From NCBI GenBank assembly GCA_026692885.1, contig JAPLNJ010000200.1:1-6316 (forward strand): a DNA stretch of 6,316 nucleotides. The letters are read 5' to 3'. Shown here one piece after another: positions 1 through 6,316 of this stretch. Position numbers and translations under genes: made by a program. This DNA comes from Planctomycetota bacterium (GTDB lineage Bacteria; Planctomycetota; Planctomycetia; Pirellulales; Pirellulaceae). The notes under the pieces were generated by a model. The model did no database searches and was not told the origin of the DNA. It saw nothing but the letters and a program-made list of their open reading frames with translations. Position 1 is the stretch's first letter. Each line of letters opens with the position of its first letter.

Positions 1-816
1 CGGTACATCATGGTCGCGAGCATGAGCAATCGACAGCGGGGAACGAAAGGCTGGGAGTGCTACACCAGCAAGGACCTGCGGCACTGGCAGGCCCCGGTCA
101 CCGTGTTCACGCCGCCCGCAGGATTCTGGGCCGATCGCGACTTCTGGGCGCCGGAGCTCCACGCCTACCGTGGCAAGTTCTACCTGTTCGGGACCCTAAG
201 TGCGGATCGTGTCAAACGCGGAACGCAGGTATTCGTCGCAGACCGTCCCCTGGGGCCTTTCCACGCTCACACCGACGCCGCTGCCACGCCGCATGACTGG
301 ATGGCCCTGGATGGGACGCTGTACGTCGATGACAACCAGCCTTGGATGGTGTTCTGCCACGAGTGGGTCCAGATCGCTGACGGCACGATGAACGCAGTTT
401 GGTTGGCAGACGACCTCTCGAAGCCCGTCGGCGAACCGATCCTGTTGTTCCGGGCCTCGGACACGCCCTGGTGTCGACCGGTCCAGCCGGGGAAGTACGT
501 GACGGATGGACCGTGCTTCTATCGCTTAAAAAGCGGTCCGTTGCTCATGCTCTGGTCCAGTTTCGGCGAGCGGGGCTACGCGGTCGGAAATGCACGTTCC
601 GGCAGCGGAACCATGCACGGACCGTGGACACAGGACCGCAAGCCGCTCTACGAAGGCGGTGGCCACTGCATGGTGTTTCACTCGCTGGAGGGCAAGCCGA
701 TGCTCGTCCTCCATGCCCCGAACGATTCACCCAAGGAACGGGCTAAGTTCTTCGAGATTCACGAAACGCAGGATTCGATCCGTCTGCAAGCCGTTGTCTG
801 GCAGCAGGGGAAATGA
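1..816 (+). CDS. Glycoside hydrolase family 43 protein (5' end missing)
   Basis: This is a five-bladed beta-propeller glycosidase of family 43 (arabinofuranosidase/xylosidase type), expected to hydrolyse plant or algal polysaccharide side chains by inversion. The frame is open to the left edge (R-Y-I before the first Met at 10), so the true start, any signal peptide and the N-terminal catalytic base Asp lie outside. Numbering from Met at 10, I see WAPELH at 46-51, the LDGTLYVDD blade with candidate Asp101 (pKa modulator), HEWVQIADG at 117-125, and TDGP at 165-168 where many relatives have EGP with the general acid Glu. Later come a WSSF segment, a GPW, a GGGH and an ERAKFFEI end, all typical of a GH43 group known from Bacteroidetes and planctomycetes. 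About 30-60 residues are missing relative to a usual ~310-residue enzyme. The stop is TGA at 814-816. Exact substrate cannot be told. Confidence 0.87.
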   Translation, partial: RYIMVASMSNRQRGTKGWECYTSKDLRHWQAPVTVFTPPAGFWADRDFWAPELHAYRGKFYLFGTLSADRVKRGTQVFVADRPLGPFHAHTDAAATPHDWMALDGTLYVDDNQPWMVFCHEWVQIADGTMNAVWLADDLSKPVGEPILLFRASDTPWCRPVQPGKYVTDGPCFYRLKSGPLLMLWSSFGERGYAVGNARSGSGTMHGPWTQDRKPLYEGGGHCMVFHSLEGKPMLVLHAPNDSPKERAKFFEIHETQDSIRLQAVVWQQGK

Positions 817-1066
817 CGACGCTCGTCGGCCTAAAGAAGGGGGGACCACGTGAAGGTGCCATGTCGCGTTACCGCGGCTTCCGCCGCAACGACAAGCCTT
901 GCTCCTAGCGAACCGCGCGGATACGTTGGCGGAGGATGCGGTACAGGTTCCCTGCCGGAATGATCGCCTTCAGTGCCCCGTCGCGACCTCAGGGATGTTG
1001 CCGTGTCCAGTCGTCGGCGGTTCTCCGACATGCTAAATTTCGGCCATGTGTCTGCGAGGATACCCA

Positions 1067-1083
1067 TCGGTCGATGTGACCGA
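1067..1083. promoter_or_regulatory. Palindrome overlapping the -35 region, candidate operator
   Basis: TCGGTC (1067-1072) and GACCGA (1078-1083) form a perfect 6-bp inverted repeat with a 5-nt spacer. It covers the -35 hexamer of the promoter at 1076-1103. A second, overlapping palindrome, CATCG-GT-CGATG, spans 1065-1076. This placement suits a repressor site. No DNA-binding regulator is encoded nearby in the window, so the binder is unknown. Confidence 0.35.
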
Positions 1084-1103
1084 CGCGCGATCCAGGGTAT
1101 AAT
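1076..1103 (+). promoter_or_regulatory. Sigma-70-type promoter of the retropepsin/PRTase pair
   Basis: A perfect TATAAT lies at 1098-1103, with GTGACC (4 of 6 matches to TTGACA) at 1076-1081 and a 16-nt spacer. Transcription would begin near 1110, leaving a leader of about 34 nt before the ATG at 1144. A perfect TATAAT is rare in DNA this GC-rich, and it lies exactly where a promoter is needed. Confidence 0.6.
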
Positions 1104-1132
1104 CAACGGCAGATGCGATCATCCCACACGCA

Positions 1133-1138
1133 GAGGAG
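1133..1138 (+). promoter_or_regulatory. Ribosome binding site deciding the start at 1144
   Basis: GAGGAG sits 5 nt before ATG at 1144. The same frame is open further up to a GTG at 973, but that extension would run through the TATAAT box and is rich in Arg with no domain character. This site therefore fixes the start at 1144. Confidence 0.7.
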
Positions 1139-1143
1139 CGTTC

Positions 1144-1941
1144 ATGGCAACGTTTGCGGTCGAGTGGAAACCAGGAGGGCCGATGCTGAAGCTCGCTGTC
1201 GCGATGCCGATTGTCAACGAGGCGAGGCCAGCAAAGTACATCGATTTCGACGTGCTCGTCGATACGGGGTACGACCTGAGCATGGTCATTCCCGAGAGGG
1301 TCAATGCTCTCAAGCTCCATAAGATCCGAGACGGGGCCAGCCATTCACCGCTTTGCAGTTCCGAGACAACGATTCACCTTGCGAGTCTGTGGCACCAAGG
1401 CGAGTTGATTGCGAACAATGCGGAGGTGTCGAGCGACAACCCGAGGGTCGGTGAAGGCCTGCTTGGGCAGAACGTGTTGCTCAACCATGTCCTTGAGCAA
1501 ATGGGACCGGGGAAGCAATGCCTTGTTCACCCGGGCGAAGGAGGTGGCCCGGCTGTGGTCACCGGCCATGCTTACCCGAGCGGACCGAAGGTACTTCTCA
1601 GCATAGGTCCTGCCATTGCGAAAGGGCAACAGCCACCGCATCGCGTCAAATGGCAATGTGTCCTCGACACGGGAGCAGGGAAGGGGATCATCGCGCCGAC
1701 AATCCGCAAGACGCTGAAGTTGGTTCAGACCGGCAGACGGAAGATCAACAACGGGAAGGTCGAGAAGGAATACCCGGAGTACCGGGTTAGCGTGTGGCAC
1801 GATAATGTGTGCTTGGTTCCGAATCTCCCGGTCGCCGAGCTGCAACCACAAGGTTCGCCCATCCTGCTTGGACAGGACTTCCTTCACGGGTGTTTGTTCA
1901 CCCAGGACGGTCCGAGCAGGTTGGTTCAACTTGAGTTCTGA
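1144..1941 (+). CDS. Tandem (two-lobed) retropepsin-like aspartic protease
   Basis: This 265-residue protein is predicted to be a retropepsin-fold aspartic protease with both catalytic lobes on one chain. Lobe 1 (about 14-120) has VLVDTGYDLSMVIP with Asp40 and GLLGQNVLLN at 105-114. Lobe 2 (about 149-265) has CVLDTGAGKGIIAP with Asp175 and ILLGQDFLHG at 240-249. These are the DTG catalytic loop and the late hydrophobic LLG-x-D/N-x-L motif of the family. The lobes align without a gap at an offset of exactly 135 residues: D40/D175, P50/P185, LKL 56-58/191-193, WH 83-84/218-219 and G108/G243. Lobe 2 has the canonical DTGA, whereas lobe 1 has DTGY, an unusual residue after Gly. I see no signal peptide or membrane helix, so it is probably cytoplasmic. 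The next gene starts about 18 nt downstream on the same strand, so the two are probably co-transcribed. Function in vivo is unknown; processing of the partner or of a cellular target is inference. A non-proteolytic scaffold is the alternative. Confidence 0.8.
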   Translation: MATFAVEWKPGGPMLKLAVAMPIVNEARPAKYIDFDVLVDTGYDLSMVIPERVNALKLHKIRDGASHSPLCSSETTIHLASLWHQGELIANNAEVSSDNPRVGEGLLGQNVLLNHVLEQMGPGKQCLVHPGEGGGPAVVTGHAYPSGPKVLLSIGPAIAKGQQPPHRVKWQCVLDTGAGKGIIAPTIRKTLKLVQTGRRKINNGKVEKEYPEYRVSVWHDNVCLVPNLPVAELQPQGSPILLGQDFLHGCLFTQDGPSRLVQLEF

Positions 1942-1952
1942 TACTTTTCCCC

Positions 1953-1957
1953 AAGGA
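1953..1957 (+). promoter_or_regulatory. Possible ribosome binding site of the PRTase gene
   Basis: AAGGA lies 12 nt after the stop of the protease gene. It is only 2 nt from the TTG at 1960 (too close) and 14 nt from the GTG at 1972 (rather far), so it does not settle the start. Translation may be coupled to the upstream gene. Confidence 0.3.
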
Positions 1958-1959
1958 CA

Positions 1960-3996
1960 TTGCACGCTTCGGTGCCACACGCCGCGGATGATGTGACCGG
2001 CGCGCAACGCTTGGGTAGCACCAAGCCTGCACTATCCGTGACCTTCACGTCAGTCGGTCAACCTGCAGAAGGTCGATTCGAGGGTAAAGACCATGAGTTT
2101 GGAAGGTTCGTCCTGATGGACTCGGGAAAGGGGATGTGGCGCATGAACGGGGGAGATGAGGCGGGCGTTCGCGTTATGCTGGGGCACCCATTTTTCGATG
2201 TGGAAGAGGTACTTGAGTTCCCCCTCGTCCACGCGAGAAAGTTGGCCGCGCACCTCCCCGAGCAGCCCTTCCGAGAACTTGAGCAGTACGCCGAGGTGGA
2301 GCGAAGGAGGGCTGATGGCAACCCGCTTGCCGAGCGGTTGAAGCCCCTGAAGTGCGACAGTGAGTTCGAGGCTTCGTTCGAGCAATGGGAAGTCATCACC
2401 GGATTCATCCTTTCCACGGACAGTCCTGCAGCGATCGAAAGATACGTTCGGGAGTACGTCGAGCACACTGGGCGGTTGGCTGTCCTCGCCGTCGCTGACC
2501 GCGACATGAATTCGGTGGACTCCTTCTGTCTCACCTGCCTCCTACAGTTCCTGGCTGTTGCGATAAAGACAGAGCGGATGTGTGACAAGAAAGTGGTGGG
2601 GGAGGCACTCAAACGATTCGACGAGTTGGTCGCCGAGATCATCAACGCCGATCCGAGCCGGGTCCGATCTGCCGACCGGGCAGGGCCTTTCGTGCGCGTC
2701 GTGACCGGTCTGCTCGCCGTCCTTCTGGTTACCAGCGAGTATGCGGGCGGGCTCAACATGGCCACTTTCAACAACGCGCTGCAGCTGAAACAAAGGCTCG
2801 GGTCCACGGTTTGGGGGGCAGTCAGACCAAGTGATAGGTATCGGTTCTCCCTCTGCTCTCTTCATTTCGCCTTGGCCATCTACGGCGATAAGCGGCCCTT
2901 GGAGTCTTTCCACGGGTTCAGCGACAACTGCCTGATGCGTCTGCGGCACATCTTGCTCGATGGGATGGAATCTGTGCCGCACCCGACCACCGCAATCTAT
3001 TCCGCTGTCTTCCGGTACTTTATCGACCAGATCGACCGCGGGGTAAACTGCCGTTCGGCCGACTTTCACCTGATCCAGGAGAACTTCACAGACGTAGACC
3101 GCACTGAGATCATGCGGCTGGCTGACAAGTTCCGAGTCTACCACTATGGCATCACCTTCGAGCGGCTGGTCCGGTTCTTGGGCCAGTTCCAGACCCTTCA
3201 AATGATGCGCGCCGCCCTCGTCCTGCTTAGAAACCTGAAATTCTACACTATGGTCACGCTTCAAACGATGCTTGAGAGCGTTTTCCGGGATTTGCCGAAC
3301 GCTGGCGAACCACATACCGTTGTCCCTCTCGGCTCGCCGGGCGGCAGCACGTCCCTCATGCACTATCTCGTCTCGCACTGGTCACTTGGCAAACTCCACA
3401 TCGAGAACGACCTGGAGCGGGTCCTGGGAACTACAGCAGACGATAAGCCACTTTACTTCATCGACGACTGCACCCTCTCGGGCACGCAGACCATCAACAC
3501 GTTCGCCGAGTACGTTGGAAGACGGGAGTTGAAGCCGCACCACACGGTCCACTGTCAGCCGCTGAGGAACGCGGATGCATTACTTCGCCGTCCAATCGTC
3601 CTGACATACGCGATCGGGTCGTTCTTCGCCTGCAAGCGACTTCGATTAGGCCTAGCCGAGCTTGGGCTTCAGAACGTGACCATCAAAGCCGCAGCGTGCG
3701 AGGACACCGGGCTAAGGCCGTTCACGCCCTCGATGGAATACATTTGGGAGGAACAGAGCCAGCGAGAGATGCTGGCCGGGTTCTTATCGGAGGTTGGTTT
3801 CTCGATCCTGGAGCCGAGGGCAGTAAGGAAAGCCTGGATGGGTGACAGGAGGCGGGAGAGCGCGCTGGGCTTCTCCGACTATCAGCGACTCATCGTCTTC
3901 CAGTACAACGTACCAAAAACGACGATCACCCCCCTCTGGGAAACTGGCCCCTTTCAGGGCAAGGACTGGATGCCGCTGTTCCCAGTCTCGGACTGA
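1960..3996 (+). CDS. Large protein with C-terminal PRTase-CE (phosphoribosyltransferase-like) domain
   Basis: The protein is 678 residues counted from TTG at 1960; other starts are GTG at 1972, 1993 or 2038, with the first in-frame ATG only at 2116. The C-terminal part (about 385-678) fits the PRTase-like domain of predicted bacterial conflict systems. It has an entry helix pair (RLVRFLGQF at 402-410, then LKFYTMVTL around 426-434), a glycine-rich LGSPGGSTS at 457-465, and the PRPP-loop signature YFIDDCTLSGTQT with Asp502-Asp503. It ends with GFSDYQ (637-642), YNVPKTTITPLW (649-660) and a closing W-x-PLFP, the tail I know from proteins annotated phosphoribosyltransferase-like. Such domains are thought to bind or transfer phosphoribosyl or nucleotide groups; the reaction is not established. 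Residues 1-95 look beta-rich and about 100-380 mainly alpha-helical; neither matches a family I recognise. A hydrophobic stretch near 248-257 is too short for a convincing membrane segment. The protein probably works with the protease encoded just upstream. Confidence 0.75.
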   Translation: MHASVPHAADDVTGAQRLGSTKPALSVTFTSVGQPAEGRFEGKDHEFGRFVLMDSGKGMWRMNGGDEAGVRVMLGHPFFDVEEVLEFPLVHARKLAAHLPEQPFRELEQYAEVERRRADGNPLAERLKPLKCDSEFEASFEQWEVITGFILSTDSPAAIERYVREYVEHTGRLAVLAVADRDMNSVDSFCLTCLLQFLAVAIKTERMCDKKVVGEALKRFDELVAEIINADPSRVRSADRAGPFVRVVTGLLAVLLVTSEYAGGLNMATFNNALQLKQRLGSTVWGAVRPSDRYRFSLCSLHFALAIYGDKRPLESFHGFSDNCLMRLRHILLDGMESVPHPTTAIYSAVFRYFIDQIDRGVNCRSADFHLIQENFTDVDRTEIMRLADKFRVYHYGITFERLVRFLGQFQTLQMMRAALVLLRNLKFYTMVTLQTMLESVFRDLPNAGEPHTVVPLGSPGGSTSLMHYLVSHWSLGKLHIENDLERVLGTTADDKPLYFIDDCTLSGTQTINTFAEYVGRRELKPHHTVHCQPLRNADALLRRPIVLTYAIGSFFACKRLRLGLAELGLQNVTIKAAACEDTGLRPFTPSMEYIWEEQSQREMLAGFLSEVGFSILEPRAVRKAWMGDRRRESALGFSDYQRLIVFQYNVPKTTITPLWETGPFQGKDWMPLFPVSD

Positions 3997-4094
3997 CCGG
4001 GAAGTTTCACATCAGCGGCGGCACTCGGCGGCTGGGGGGCCATGTCCTTACGTTGTGAACACCCGGTCCCGACGCTGTCGACCAAACGTTTCGA

Positions 4095-4117
4095 GCGTCG
4101 GTCCGACACACCGACGC
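4095..4117. terminator. GC-rich hairpin between convergent genes
   Basis: GCGTCGGT (4095-4102) and ACCGACGC (4110-4117) form a perfect 8-bp stem with a 7-nt loop. It lies about 100 nt past the PRTase stop and about 160 nt past the ExbD-like stop, between convergent genes, so it could end transcription from both sides. No T tract follows on either strand, so it is not a textbook intrinsic terminator. A palindromic AAACGTTT lies just left of it at 4084-4091. The same core as the palindrome at 1067-1087 recurs here. Confidence 0.35.
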
Positions 4118-4120
4118 GAG

Positions 4121-4259
4121 TTAGACGAGGCCGACACCACGCGCTGAAGATGCCATCGCCGCTTTCGTTTTCGACTTCACCATCTTGCCGCCGCTGTTGC
4201 GCCGGTAGACGACTCCCGCAGCAGCGAGGGTGGTAATCCACGTCCAGCAAGGCGATCAT
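4121..4259 (-). pseudogene. Possible frameshifted N-terminal stub of an endonuclease V-like gene
   Basis: On the minus strand, 17 nt after the stop of the ExbD-like gene, an ATG at 4259 begins MIALLDVDYH. A shift of frame at about 4230 continues it as TTLAAAGVVYRR and runs to TAA at 4121-4123. Joined, the start resembles the first beta strands of endonuclease V-type nucleases (a D-V-D/S-Y strand, then a short loop and an A-A-x-V-hydrophobic strand). The sequence after VVYRR does not look like that family. The match is short and made by eye, there is no clear ribosome binding site, and chance is quite possible. Confidence 0.22.
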
Positions 4260-4276
4260 GCTACGATCGCGGCAGA

Positions 4277-4783
4277 TCAATCAGGCGATGCCGTCAACGC
4301 CTGAACCCGCACGTTTTCGACCCCAGCCTCCTTGCACACGGCCTGCACGGCTGCGACGTGCTCGAACAGGCACCGGCGGTCCACCTCGACGACGACTTCC
4401 CGGTGGATCGCGCCGTCCTCACGGGTTTTGACCAGCAGGTTCTTCAGCCCGCCCGGGTCGACCGCCTGACCGTCAACGAGGATCTTGCCCTGTGGATCGA
4501 GCTTCACGGCGATCTTGCGGATGTCTGTGCCTGGCGGAGGGGCCTCGGCCATCGTTGGGGCTTGAAGTTTGGGCGTTAGCTCGACTGGCTGCGCGGGTTG
4601 GACCATGACCCGTTCTACCATTTGCGGTGGCGGTGGTGCCACAGATCGCACACTCAACCCGAAGAAGAACAAACCGGCGAGGCCCAGAACCAACAGGCCG
4701 CCCAACATCAACAAGACGACAACGGCCACGATGGCGATGACCGTTCCAGAAGATGATGTACGCGGTTGATCTTCGTAGCTCAT
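4277..4783 (-). CDS. ExbD/TolR-like single-helix membrane protein
   Basis: From ATG at 4783 this is a 168-residue protein. It has a short polar N-terminus (MSYEDQPRTSSSG), one long hydrophobic helix at about 14-43, a Pro-rich linker (about 49-90) and a C-terminal globular domain (about 91-163). That domain follows the ExbD/TolR periplasmic pattern: IAVKLDPQGKILVDGQ, a helix, VVVEVDRR, a helix, then VENVRVQAL. It would be anchored in the inner membrane with the C-terminal domain outside. The membrane helix lacks the Asp that carries protons in true ExbD/TolR, and no ExbB/TolQ gene is present, so energy coupling is doubtful. The frame stays open to a GTG at 4876, but that extension (MWKRRRKRL...) lacks a ribosome binding site and fits the family less well; AAGTGAG lies about 7 nt before 4783. 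It is 111 nt downstream of the large gene and may be in its operon. Confidence 0.7.
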   Translation of the reverse strand: MSYEDQPRTSSSGTVIAIVAVVVLLMLGGLLVLGLAGLFFFGLSVRSVAPPPPQMVERVMVQPAQPVELTPKLQAPTMAEAPPPGTDIRKIAVKLDPQGKILVDGQAVDPGGLKNLLVKTREDGAIHREVVVEVDRRCLFEHVAAVQAVCKEAGVENVRVQALTASPD

Positions 4784-4894: not shown

Positions 4895-6316
4895 CTACCG
4901 CTGCGGCGGACTGGCTTCCCGCACCACGGCTCCGTGTTCGTCACTCAGCACCAGCAGCGAGAATTTCTTCACGAAGTCCAGCTCGTTGGTGCTCAGCGAC
5001 GTGTAATCGAAGCGGCCACGCAGATCCGTGTAGCCGTCCTTGTAGAACTTCACCGTGCCGTCCTGCATCTGAGCGTAGACCTTCACGTACACCTTCGCCA
5101 GGGGCTTACCCGTTTCGCTGTGCTTGACGTGGATCTGGCCGTAGTTCTCCACGACCTGCACTGCCAGGGCATTGGCGTAGTAGGCCCGCGATTTGGTCTG
5201 GCCAGCGCCGGTAATCTCGACCAGCACGTTGCTGCTGTGCAACTGCTTGGGCAGCTCGAACGTGATTGCCGCCTGCTTGGCAGGCAGATCCAACGTCTGC
5301 GTCAGGTTGGGCCGGATGTTCGAGAACTGGCCGGAGTACTGCTGCACGAACGGATTGCGGCTGAACAGCAGTTCAATGTCCATCAGGTAGTAGTTGACCT
5401 GGACCTGCTTCAGGGTCTGGTAGTTGAGCGTGACCTTCTTGGCCTCCACCTGGAAGTCGAAACTGGCTTCTGTGGCCGCCAGCTTGGTCTGGACCTCGGT
5501 CCGGCTCTCCTTGTCGATGACCTTGGTGTCCTGACCAGAGATCTCCTCCAGTTGGGCGATCATGGCGCCGAACAGGTCGCGCCAACGATCCACCGGATGC
5601 TGGGCGTACTTCGCGACGATGTCGCGGGCCTGCTGTGGCTGCTCTCGAACCATAGTCAAGTACGCTGCGAAGTAATCGTACTGCAGACGGGTGGCCAACC
5701 GTTCGGCACGCACCCGGCTGAACGCGCCCAGCGCCTCGTCGATCCGGTCCTGCAGCAGGTAATAGGTCACCGCCATCAACTCCGGATCGTCCAGATCGGC
5801 CCGGTAGCTGAGGATCTTCAGCAGTTGGTGATACTGGCCGTGGAAGCGGTCGTTGACAATCTGGCGGCGCTGGCCCAACTGATGGGCGCGAGCGTTGACC
5901 AGCGGCCGGTAGTCGAGGTGCTGGTACGCTTTGCGAGCCACCGGATCGATCGTCAGTAGCGGGCTGTCGATGAAGGCCCCGCATTGGCCGACGAAGCCGT
6001 CCGCGTGTTGCAGATACTCACGGGCCGCTGCCGGCTCGTTGTGCTTGAGGTAATACGACCACAACGTGTCGCTGTAGGCGTGGCGCTGAGCCAGCAACCC
6101 GGTCACCGTGCCGAAGAACGCCTTGTCCTGCACGCGGAAGGCAATCTTGTCCAGGTTCGTACGGTGCAAGTTCGCCTGTTGCAGGTACTTCAACACGTCG
6201 TCGCTGGTGCCGAACTGGGACAGGTATTCCCACGATGCTTTGTCGATGCGGCTAAGCTTGGCTACGGCCTTCAAGGTGACCGGCGCCGCGTGCGCCACCA
6301 ACTGCTCGTTCTTGGA
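4895..6316 (-). CDS. Large protein with helical repeats and macroglobulin-like C-terminal domain (5' end missing)
   Basis: The frame is open to the right edge, leaving the last 473 residues of a longer protein; the TTG at 6301 is an internal Leu, not a start. The first ~285 visible residues are alpha-helical with a TPR-like look (WEYLSQFG, LWSYYLKHNEPAAAREYL, TYYLLQDRIDEALGAFSRV). From about 290 to the end it becomes beta-rich: FDFQVEAKKVTLNYQTL, then YYLMDIELLFSRNPF, then an immunoglobulin/MG-like stretch with GKPLAKVYVKVYA and KDGYTDLRGRFDY, ending in LLVLSDEHGAVVREASPP. The KDGYTDLRGRFDY segment resembles the macroglobulin-type or carboxypeptidase-regulatory-like domains of large secreted planctomycete proteins. 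A cell-envelope location is likely but the signal peptide, if any, is off-window. Function is unknown. The stop is TAG at 4895-4897, followed by the ExbD-like gene on the same strand. Confidence 0.75.
   Translation of the reverse strand, partial: SKNEQLVAHAAPVTLKAVAKLSRIDKASWEYLSQFGTSDDVLKYLQQANLHRTNLDKIAFRVQDKAFFGTVTGLLAQRHAYSDTLWSYYLKHNEPAAAREYLQHADGFVGQCGAFIDSPLLTIDPVARKAYQHLDYRPLVNARAHQLGQRRQIVNDRFHGQYHQLLKILSYRADLDDPELMAVTYYLLQDRIDEALGAFSRVRAERLATRLQYDYFAAYLTMVREQPQQARDIVAKYAQHPVDRWRDLFGAMIAQLEEISGQDTKVIDKESRTEVQTKLAATEASFDFQVEAKKVTLNYQTLKQVQVNYYLMDIELLFSRNPFVQQYSGQFSNIRPNLTQTLDLPAKQAAITFELPKQLHSSNVLVEITGAGQTKSRAYYANALAVQVVENYGQIHVKHSETGKPLAKVYVKVYAQMQDGTVKFYKDGYTDLRGRFDYTSLSTNELDFVKKFSLLVLSDEHGAVVREASPPQR

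Follow-up and report, generated by a model that had tools for sequence, protein, structure and literature searches.

Locus and flanking genes

The question raised by this locus was whether a retropepsin-type protease gene and a PRTase-CE gene that lie next to each other form a new two-part defence system, as proposed in the initial annotation. The window (the whole stretch of DNA analysed, 6,316 nt from a Planctomycetota bacterium of the Pirellulaceae, contig JAPLNJ010000200.1) carries both genes on the forward strand. Adjacency by chance was the most likely explanation for the pair, and we lean towards reading the second gene as a rare stand-alone conflict-type protein, made of a helical half and a PRTase-CE effector, beside an independent protease. 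Searches of the open-licence PMC literature returned neither an antiphage operon combining an aspartyl protease with a phosphoribosyltransferase nor the term 'PRTase-CE', and for bacterial retropepsin-type proteases in phage defence they returned a single paper, on Rickettsiales.

A Pfam scan agreed with the earlier description of the pair as flanked by unrelated genes. Upstream lies a GH43 glycosidase gene outside any system (positions 1–816, + strand, 5' end cut by the window; PF04616, 107.9 bits), and downstream, convergent with the pair, a gene for an ExbD/TolR-like membrane protein (4277–4780, − strand; PF02472, 34.5 bits), followed by a flanking gene for a large protein (4895–6316, − strand, 5' end cut by the window) that had no Pfam family above its own cut-off and no NCBIfam match, and is probably envelope-type. 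No defence or mobile gene was detected by the Pfam scan among the genes flanking the pair within the 6.3-kb window. GC content was 58.0% for the protease gene and 58.6% for the PRTase-CE gene, versus 61.0–62.3% for the three flanking genes. The kinds of gene present and the base composition look planctomycete-like.

Protease gene

Positions 1144–1941 (+ strand) encode a 265-aa two-lobed retropepsin-type aspartic protease, as first annotated: D40-T-G and D175-T-G are both present, and the lobes align with each other without gaps at 24% identity across 115 residues (E 2e-11). PF13975 matched at 37.5 bits (cut-off 28.2), with its best stretch in the second lobe, and the first lobe gave a weak TIGR03698 match (23.3 bits, below the family cut-off of 57.35). 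The DTG of lobe 2 was present in all five alignment rows, and that of lobe 1 in four, the fifth row being without lobe 1. One DTG per lobe is shared with single-chain retropepsin-type aspartic proteases (PF13975/PF13650), and other ORFs carrying two matches of this type exist; unlike those proteases, the window protease has a first lobe that scores below family cut-offs, and its close family is small. An AlphaFold model (five rows) reached a pLDDT of just 42.5, and the protease profile had no match among PDB sequences. Relatives were found in neither phage or plasmid records (tblastn) nor IMG/VR viral contigs. Matches to Avs3a (E 0.13 and 0.018) were rejected as chance, covering short stretches of a 2,083–2,090-position model.

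PRTase-CE gene

The second gene was assigned to positions 2143–3996 (+ strand), encoding a 617-aa protein with an all-helical N-terminal half and a C-terminal PRTase-CE domain (PF24390). The Met aligning with window position 2143 is the start in all four close relatives found; alternative starts are ATG 2116, used in the databank gene call (626 aa), and TTG 1960, used in the initial annotation (678 aa). The 18-nt spacing reported earlier depends on TTG 1960, and was replaced by an intergenic gap of 174 nt (from ATG 2116) to 201 nt (from 2143), since the relatives start at the 2143 Met and the databank call at ATG 2116.

The C-terminal domain (3172–3984, + strand; residues 405–675 of the 678-aa frame) was recovered as previously claimed, PF24390 matching at 68.8 bits against a cut-off of 27 and spanning positions 3–252 of 253. 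It contains the loop FIDDCTLSGT, and the residues singled out earlier, D502 and D503 of the 678-aa frame, do sit in the DDCxLSGTQ loop, which is identical in the window protein, three full-length metagenome relatives and a Burkholderia relative. The DDxxxSGT loop is presumably of the PRPP type known from phosphoribosyltransferases in general.

The domain is preceded by about 350 mostly helical residues, and no Pfam family exceeded its cut-off in this N-terminal half. A structure model built on five rows, one of which (P0005) is truncated, gave a helical N-terminal half with pLDDT mostly 80–94 (residues 31–250 of the 626-aa form), and pLDDT below 50 from residue 373 on, including the PRTase domain. 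Foldseek searches of this model against the PDB returned nothing at E ≤ 0.001, the top-ranked rows being mostly helical-repeat proteins, designed or natural. The protein profile had one chance-level match among PDB sequences (E 0.14), and a PHROGs search gave no match.

Family contexts and test of the pairing

Gene neighbourhoods were surveyed for the 17 PRTase-CE genes that scored over the cut-off in 398 Pseudomonadota genomes. Nine adjoined a reverse transcriptase, five an ORC-CDC6-like ATPase (L037, L042, L046, L047 and L048) and two a helicase/NADAR/methylase-like set, and one was fused to an OLD-like TOPRIM domain. A conflict-type partner or fusion was thus present at 17/17 loci, which supports the earlier description of PRTase-CE as a conflict-type domain. 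The pairs with an ORC-CDC6-like ATPase resemble the window protein in having PRTase-CE in a conflict-type context, and differ in the ATPase gene itself, which is absent from the window. This set of recurring partners gives a yardstick for claimed new ones, such as a protease.

Measured against it, the recurrent retropepsin/PRTase-CE adjacency that the initial annotation had named as its test was not observed: no retropepsin lay near any of the 17 genes (three of which are on contigs covering 4–10 kb around the gene), even though a retropepsin is encoded elsewhere in 16 of the 17 genomes, the nearest same-contig copy being ~233 kb away (in G724). Nor was a retropepsin matched anywhere on the 391,552-nt Burkholderia plasmid that carries a full-length relative of the window protein. 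As an indirect comparison, the longest contigs of the four PRTase and four protease non-window clusters were set side by side (P0003 has three contigs, of which the longest was used), and had no size in common. Of the proposed two-gene cassette, the shared strand and the adjacency stood; the 18-nt gap and, within the loci compared, a recurrent pairing were not supported.

Distribution of relatives

Few relatives were found for either gene, four non-window clusters each, with protein search length limits that leave out partial genes at contig ends. The full-length relative mentioned above, P0011 (WP_046543936.1) from a Burkholderia contaminans plasmid, shares 32.5% identity with the window protein over 78% of the protein and carries PRTase-CE over the cut-off. 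Its architecture is like that of the window protein and it too is a single gene; it adjoins a tyrosine integrase gene and is without a protease neighbour, whereas the window gene adjoins the protease. A tblastn search of phage and plasmid records with the PRTase-CE protein returned two Burkholderia contaminans plasmids only and no phage, and IMG/VR viral contigs held no relatives. Among GTDB genome contigs, a first alignment retrieved nothing and a second a single Rhodoferax fragment, a relic. The spread was patchy: one genome in the 399 Burkholderiales and one in the 398 Pseudomonadota had a match, in each case the same 40-residue relic in the centre genome, G001.

Upstream repeat and promoter-like sites

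A 16-nt direct repeat (GATGTGACCGRCGCGC) is present upstream of the protease gene (copy 1, 1073–1088, + strand) and again 138–153 nt upstream of ATG 2143 (copy 2, 1990–2005, + strand). The score of this pair was reached in 2 of 1,000 shuffles (as the strongest of six comparisons) and in 0 of 200 in a separate shuffle run, and 2 of 875 random window pairs scored as high, a count that may include the pair itself. Extended to 21 nt (1068–1088 and 1985–2005), the repeats are imperfect (86%) and bracket the protease gene. Standing upstream of both genes, the 16-nt repeat could place them under joint control. Copy 1 overlaps a sigma-70-like site at 1076–1103 (10/12 match), one of three such sites in 800–4300 (shuffle mean 0.9); the single promoter for both genes put forward in the initial annotation is only putative.

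Preferred reading and alternatives

If the second gene is a stand-alone conflict-type protein, its helical half is probably a sensing or restraining scaffold, and PRTase-CE, judging from retron type III-A and from the other systems that contain this domain, is probably the harmful enzyme. The DDxxxSGT loop would hold the substrate, a phosphoribosyl compound or a nucleotide, and the helical half, on sensing a cue, would release the PRTase-CE domain, which may then deplete or modify nucleotides so that the infected cell halts; the upstream protease gene would be independent and merely adjacent here. Any protective effect of the protein is likewise putative. Since it brings its own helical half and needs no second gene as partner, such a single-gene form would offer a compact means of studying what the PRTase-CE enzyme does.

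A role as a metabolic or regulatory nucleotide-binding protein outside conflict is unlikely: the ordinary flanking genes and the lack of defence neighbours in the window are consistent with it, and the conflict-type contexts at 17/17 family loci, the patchy spread, the plasmid copy beside an integrase and the Rhodoferax relic speak against it. We consider a genuine two-gene system, in which the protease would cleave or release the PRTase-CE protein or its helical half upon infection, as in other conflict systems, to be distinctly unlikely. The two genes share a strand, lie 174–201 nt apart, are each preceded by the 16-nt repeat, have slightly lower GC than the flanking genes and have few relatives in either family, all of which would fit; opposed to this are the 17 surveyed genes, none with a retropepsin nearby, the Burkholderia plasmid, with no retropepsin at all, and, indirectly, the contig-size comparison. 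A more specific form, a lineage-restricted immune system in which the 16-nt repeat would serve as a common operator and the protease would clip the helical half and free a nucleotide-targeting toxin, was judged improbable.

Equally improbable is that the protease gene was inserted ahead of the PRTase gene, cutting the latter off from its original upstream region, with the 16–21-nt direct repeats as the trace of the event. Repeats on both sides of the protease gene and, indirectly, relatives of the PRTase gene seemingly without a protease would agree with such an event, but the repeats are short and imperfect, and no integrase gene was found among the window ORFs scanned. A simple attC-like scan gave one place, on both strands, inside the downstream gene, which also counts against the insertion, and an integron cassette was rejected on this result.

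Comparison with retron type III-A

The PRTase effector of retron type III-A is mentioned in PMC12548924, and belongs to the same PRTase-CE domain family as the window protein. PADLOC models of this effector matched the domain at 5.2e-15 (PDLC02934, partial coverage) and 4.8e-14. That the window gene is a type III-A effector left behind after loss of the reverse transcriptase is very improbable and largely refuted: PRTase_III-A was the best PADLOC model, but none of the five main ORFs scanned in the 6.3-kb window encodes a reverse transcriptase, the window had no Rfam match at gathering scores (Rfam may not cover every retron RNA), PRTase-CE starts at about residue 11 of 419 in the retron-type protein L038 and is C-terminal, after the helical half, in the window protein, and in the domain tree the RT-associated group does not enclose the window clade.

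Gene structure

With pairing to the upstream protease unsupported, what stands is the large protein encoded in the window: a PRTase-CE variant made up of one gene, rare and compact. The initial annotation had proposed a two-gene cassette, of which both genes and their domains are real, but the pairing with the protease is unsupported by gene neighbourhoods.

The protease frame contains an ATG at 1144, although as listed it opens earlier, at GTG 973; it matched PF13975 (gag-asp_proteas) at 37.5 bits (cut-off 28.2). Since its halves can be aligned to each other without gaps (E 2e-11), and DTG and LLGQ motifs are found in each half of the window sequence, the label of a two-lobed retropepsin is right. 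This build is not unusual in itself, as genome searches also gave single frames with two retropepsin matches elsewhere (e.g. 597 aa in genome G724 and 339 aa in genome G609). Searching 398 Pseudomonadota genomes with a protease profile produced two weak partial matches only, both to the second lobe.

The same-strand ORF ending at 3996 matched PF24390 (PRTase-CE) at 68.8 bits (cut-off 27), confirming the domain call made on this gene. Among the flanking genes, Pfam identified GH43 on the upstream side and an ExbD-like gene on the downstream side. The claimed 18-nt spacing depends on a TTG start at 1960 and was not upheld: the databank gene call is 626 aa, from ATG 2116, and MNRG(D/N)EAEVR, which opens all four close metagenome relatives found (P0002–P0005), aligns with Met 2143. 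Because the start is ATG 2116 (databank) or Met 2143 (relatives), the gap between the two genes is 174–201 nt.

In the structural model of the large protein, helices extend throughout the N-terminal half (pLDDT mostly 80–94 for residues 31–250), and no reliable fold was obtained from residue 373 onward. Foldseek with this model returned no significant match. The helical half is probably a sensing or restraining part, and the C-terminal domain would be a nucleotide-acting enzyme.

Genomic context of the PRTase-CE family

Of 398 Pseudomonadota genomes searched with PF24390, 35 gave a match, which passed the cut-off in 17; context was counted at these 17 loci, leaving out the 18 genomes with under-cut-off matches alone, and three loci are short owing to contig ends (L041, 4,155 nt; L050, 7,058 nt; L038, 10,298 nt). 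A reverse transcriptase adjoins the PRTase-CE gene in 9/17 loci (four found by Pfam and, with a profile made from these, five more), and PADLOC, run on two of the four Pfam-found proteins, ranked retron III-A RT models first. Retron type III is reported to come typically with PRTase effector genes (PMC12548924), and a figure legend on validated systems lists PRTase among its abbreviations (PMC13092281). An ORC-CDC6-like ATPase, in each case identified by Pfam, adjoins the gene in five loci (L037, L042, L046, L047, L048), with an additional HAD-type phosphatase-like gene in L042 and L048, and a gene matching PADLOC CARF models in L046; this combination is a recurrent multi-gene conflict-type set. 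Two further loci (L034, L035) have, in the same order, the PRTase-CE gene, a large NO VEIN-type helicase, a NADAR gene and a DUF1156 methylase-like gene, and in one locus (L036, 7402–8946) PRTase-CE is fused to an OLD-like TOPRIM in a 515-aa protein, flanked on its two sides by a divergent OLD-type AAA gene and a dynamin/GTPase-like gene. Such partners at the 17 loci give good support, from genomic context, to the earlier description of PRTase-CE as a conflict domain.

When homologue neighbourhoods were tabulated, the protease adjoined PRTase-CE neither at any of the 17 loci, where the protease profile had no match, nor on a Burkholderia plasmid carrying a relative, leaving the proposed pairing without support. 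Sixteen of the 17 genomes do have PF13975 and PF13650 matches, but never near the PRTase-CE gene; a retropepsin match shares a contig with PRTase-CE only in G609, G583 and G724, the nearest being ~233 kb apart (G724).

A domain tree (17 loci, window, P0002–P0004 and the Burkholderia relative P0011; midpoint rooting, one of the deepest splits with support 0) placed the window clade, together with Burkholderia, on a long branch of its own, apart from the RT-associated group. Across the alignment there is a (D/T)Dxxx(S/T)G-type loop, with TD in several RT-associated members, and L047 and L034–L035 varying around it.

Relatives and co-occurrence

In a protein databank of 5.8 billion sequences, the PRTase-CE protein had at least four relatives beyond the window at 72–81% identity (7,997 candidates scored), the same ones being recovered by a profile search among the matches listed, and the protease had four at 56–81% identity (945 candidates). 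The longest contigs are 3476, 13025, 16924 and 3397 nt for the PRTase-CE relatives, and 2267, 8654, 1075 and 40318 nt for the protease relatives. Among these four plus four listed relatives no size is common to both sets, and therefore no longest contig in either set shows the two genes together; the comparison infers co-occurrence from sizes, misses contig-end, partial or very divergent genes, includes one relative with three contigs (P0003), and draws its information from the two long contigs on each side, the short ones saying little.

Two Burkholderia contaminans plasmids carry a relative that shares this architecture, at 32.5% identity over 78%; on one of them the gene is transcriptionally alone and adjoins a phage-type integrase. 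The protease profile had no match in the 25-kb plasmid locus, and neither PF13975 nor PF13650 matched anywhere on the plasmid of 391,552 nt. The sole match in GTDB contigs was a fragment in Rhodoferax ferrireducens comprising the last 40 residues of a PRTase-CE protein (L002, 10001–10117; same place as L003), sharing 82% identity over 39 residues with the Burkholderia protein: the relic of a lost copy. This relic aside, the alignment-based profile of the PRTase-CE protein matched in 0/399 Burkholderiales and 0/398 Pseudomonadota genomes, in evenly drawn samples with at most three candidates scored in the genomes listed.

Flanking sequence elements

A 16-nt near-identical direct repeat, GATGTGACCGRCGCGC, lies upstream of both genes (1073–1088 and 1990–2005), and a sigma-70-like site is present at 1076–1103. 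The repeat has no further copy in the window at ≤3 mismatches and belongs to a longer repeat of 21 nt (86%), whose copies bracket the protease gene. Its match score, the strongest of six comparisons, was reached in 0/200 shuffles and, separately, in 2/1000, and was also attained by 2/875 random window pairs, possibly including the repeat pair itself. It may be a common operator of both genes, or an insertion trace or scar. Downstream, 3' of the PRTase-CE gene, a GC-rich hairpin lacking a T run was spotted by eye at 4095–4117 (GCGTCGGT...ACCGACGC).
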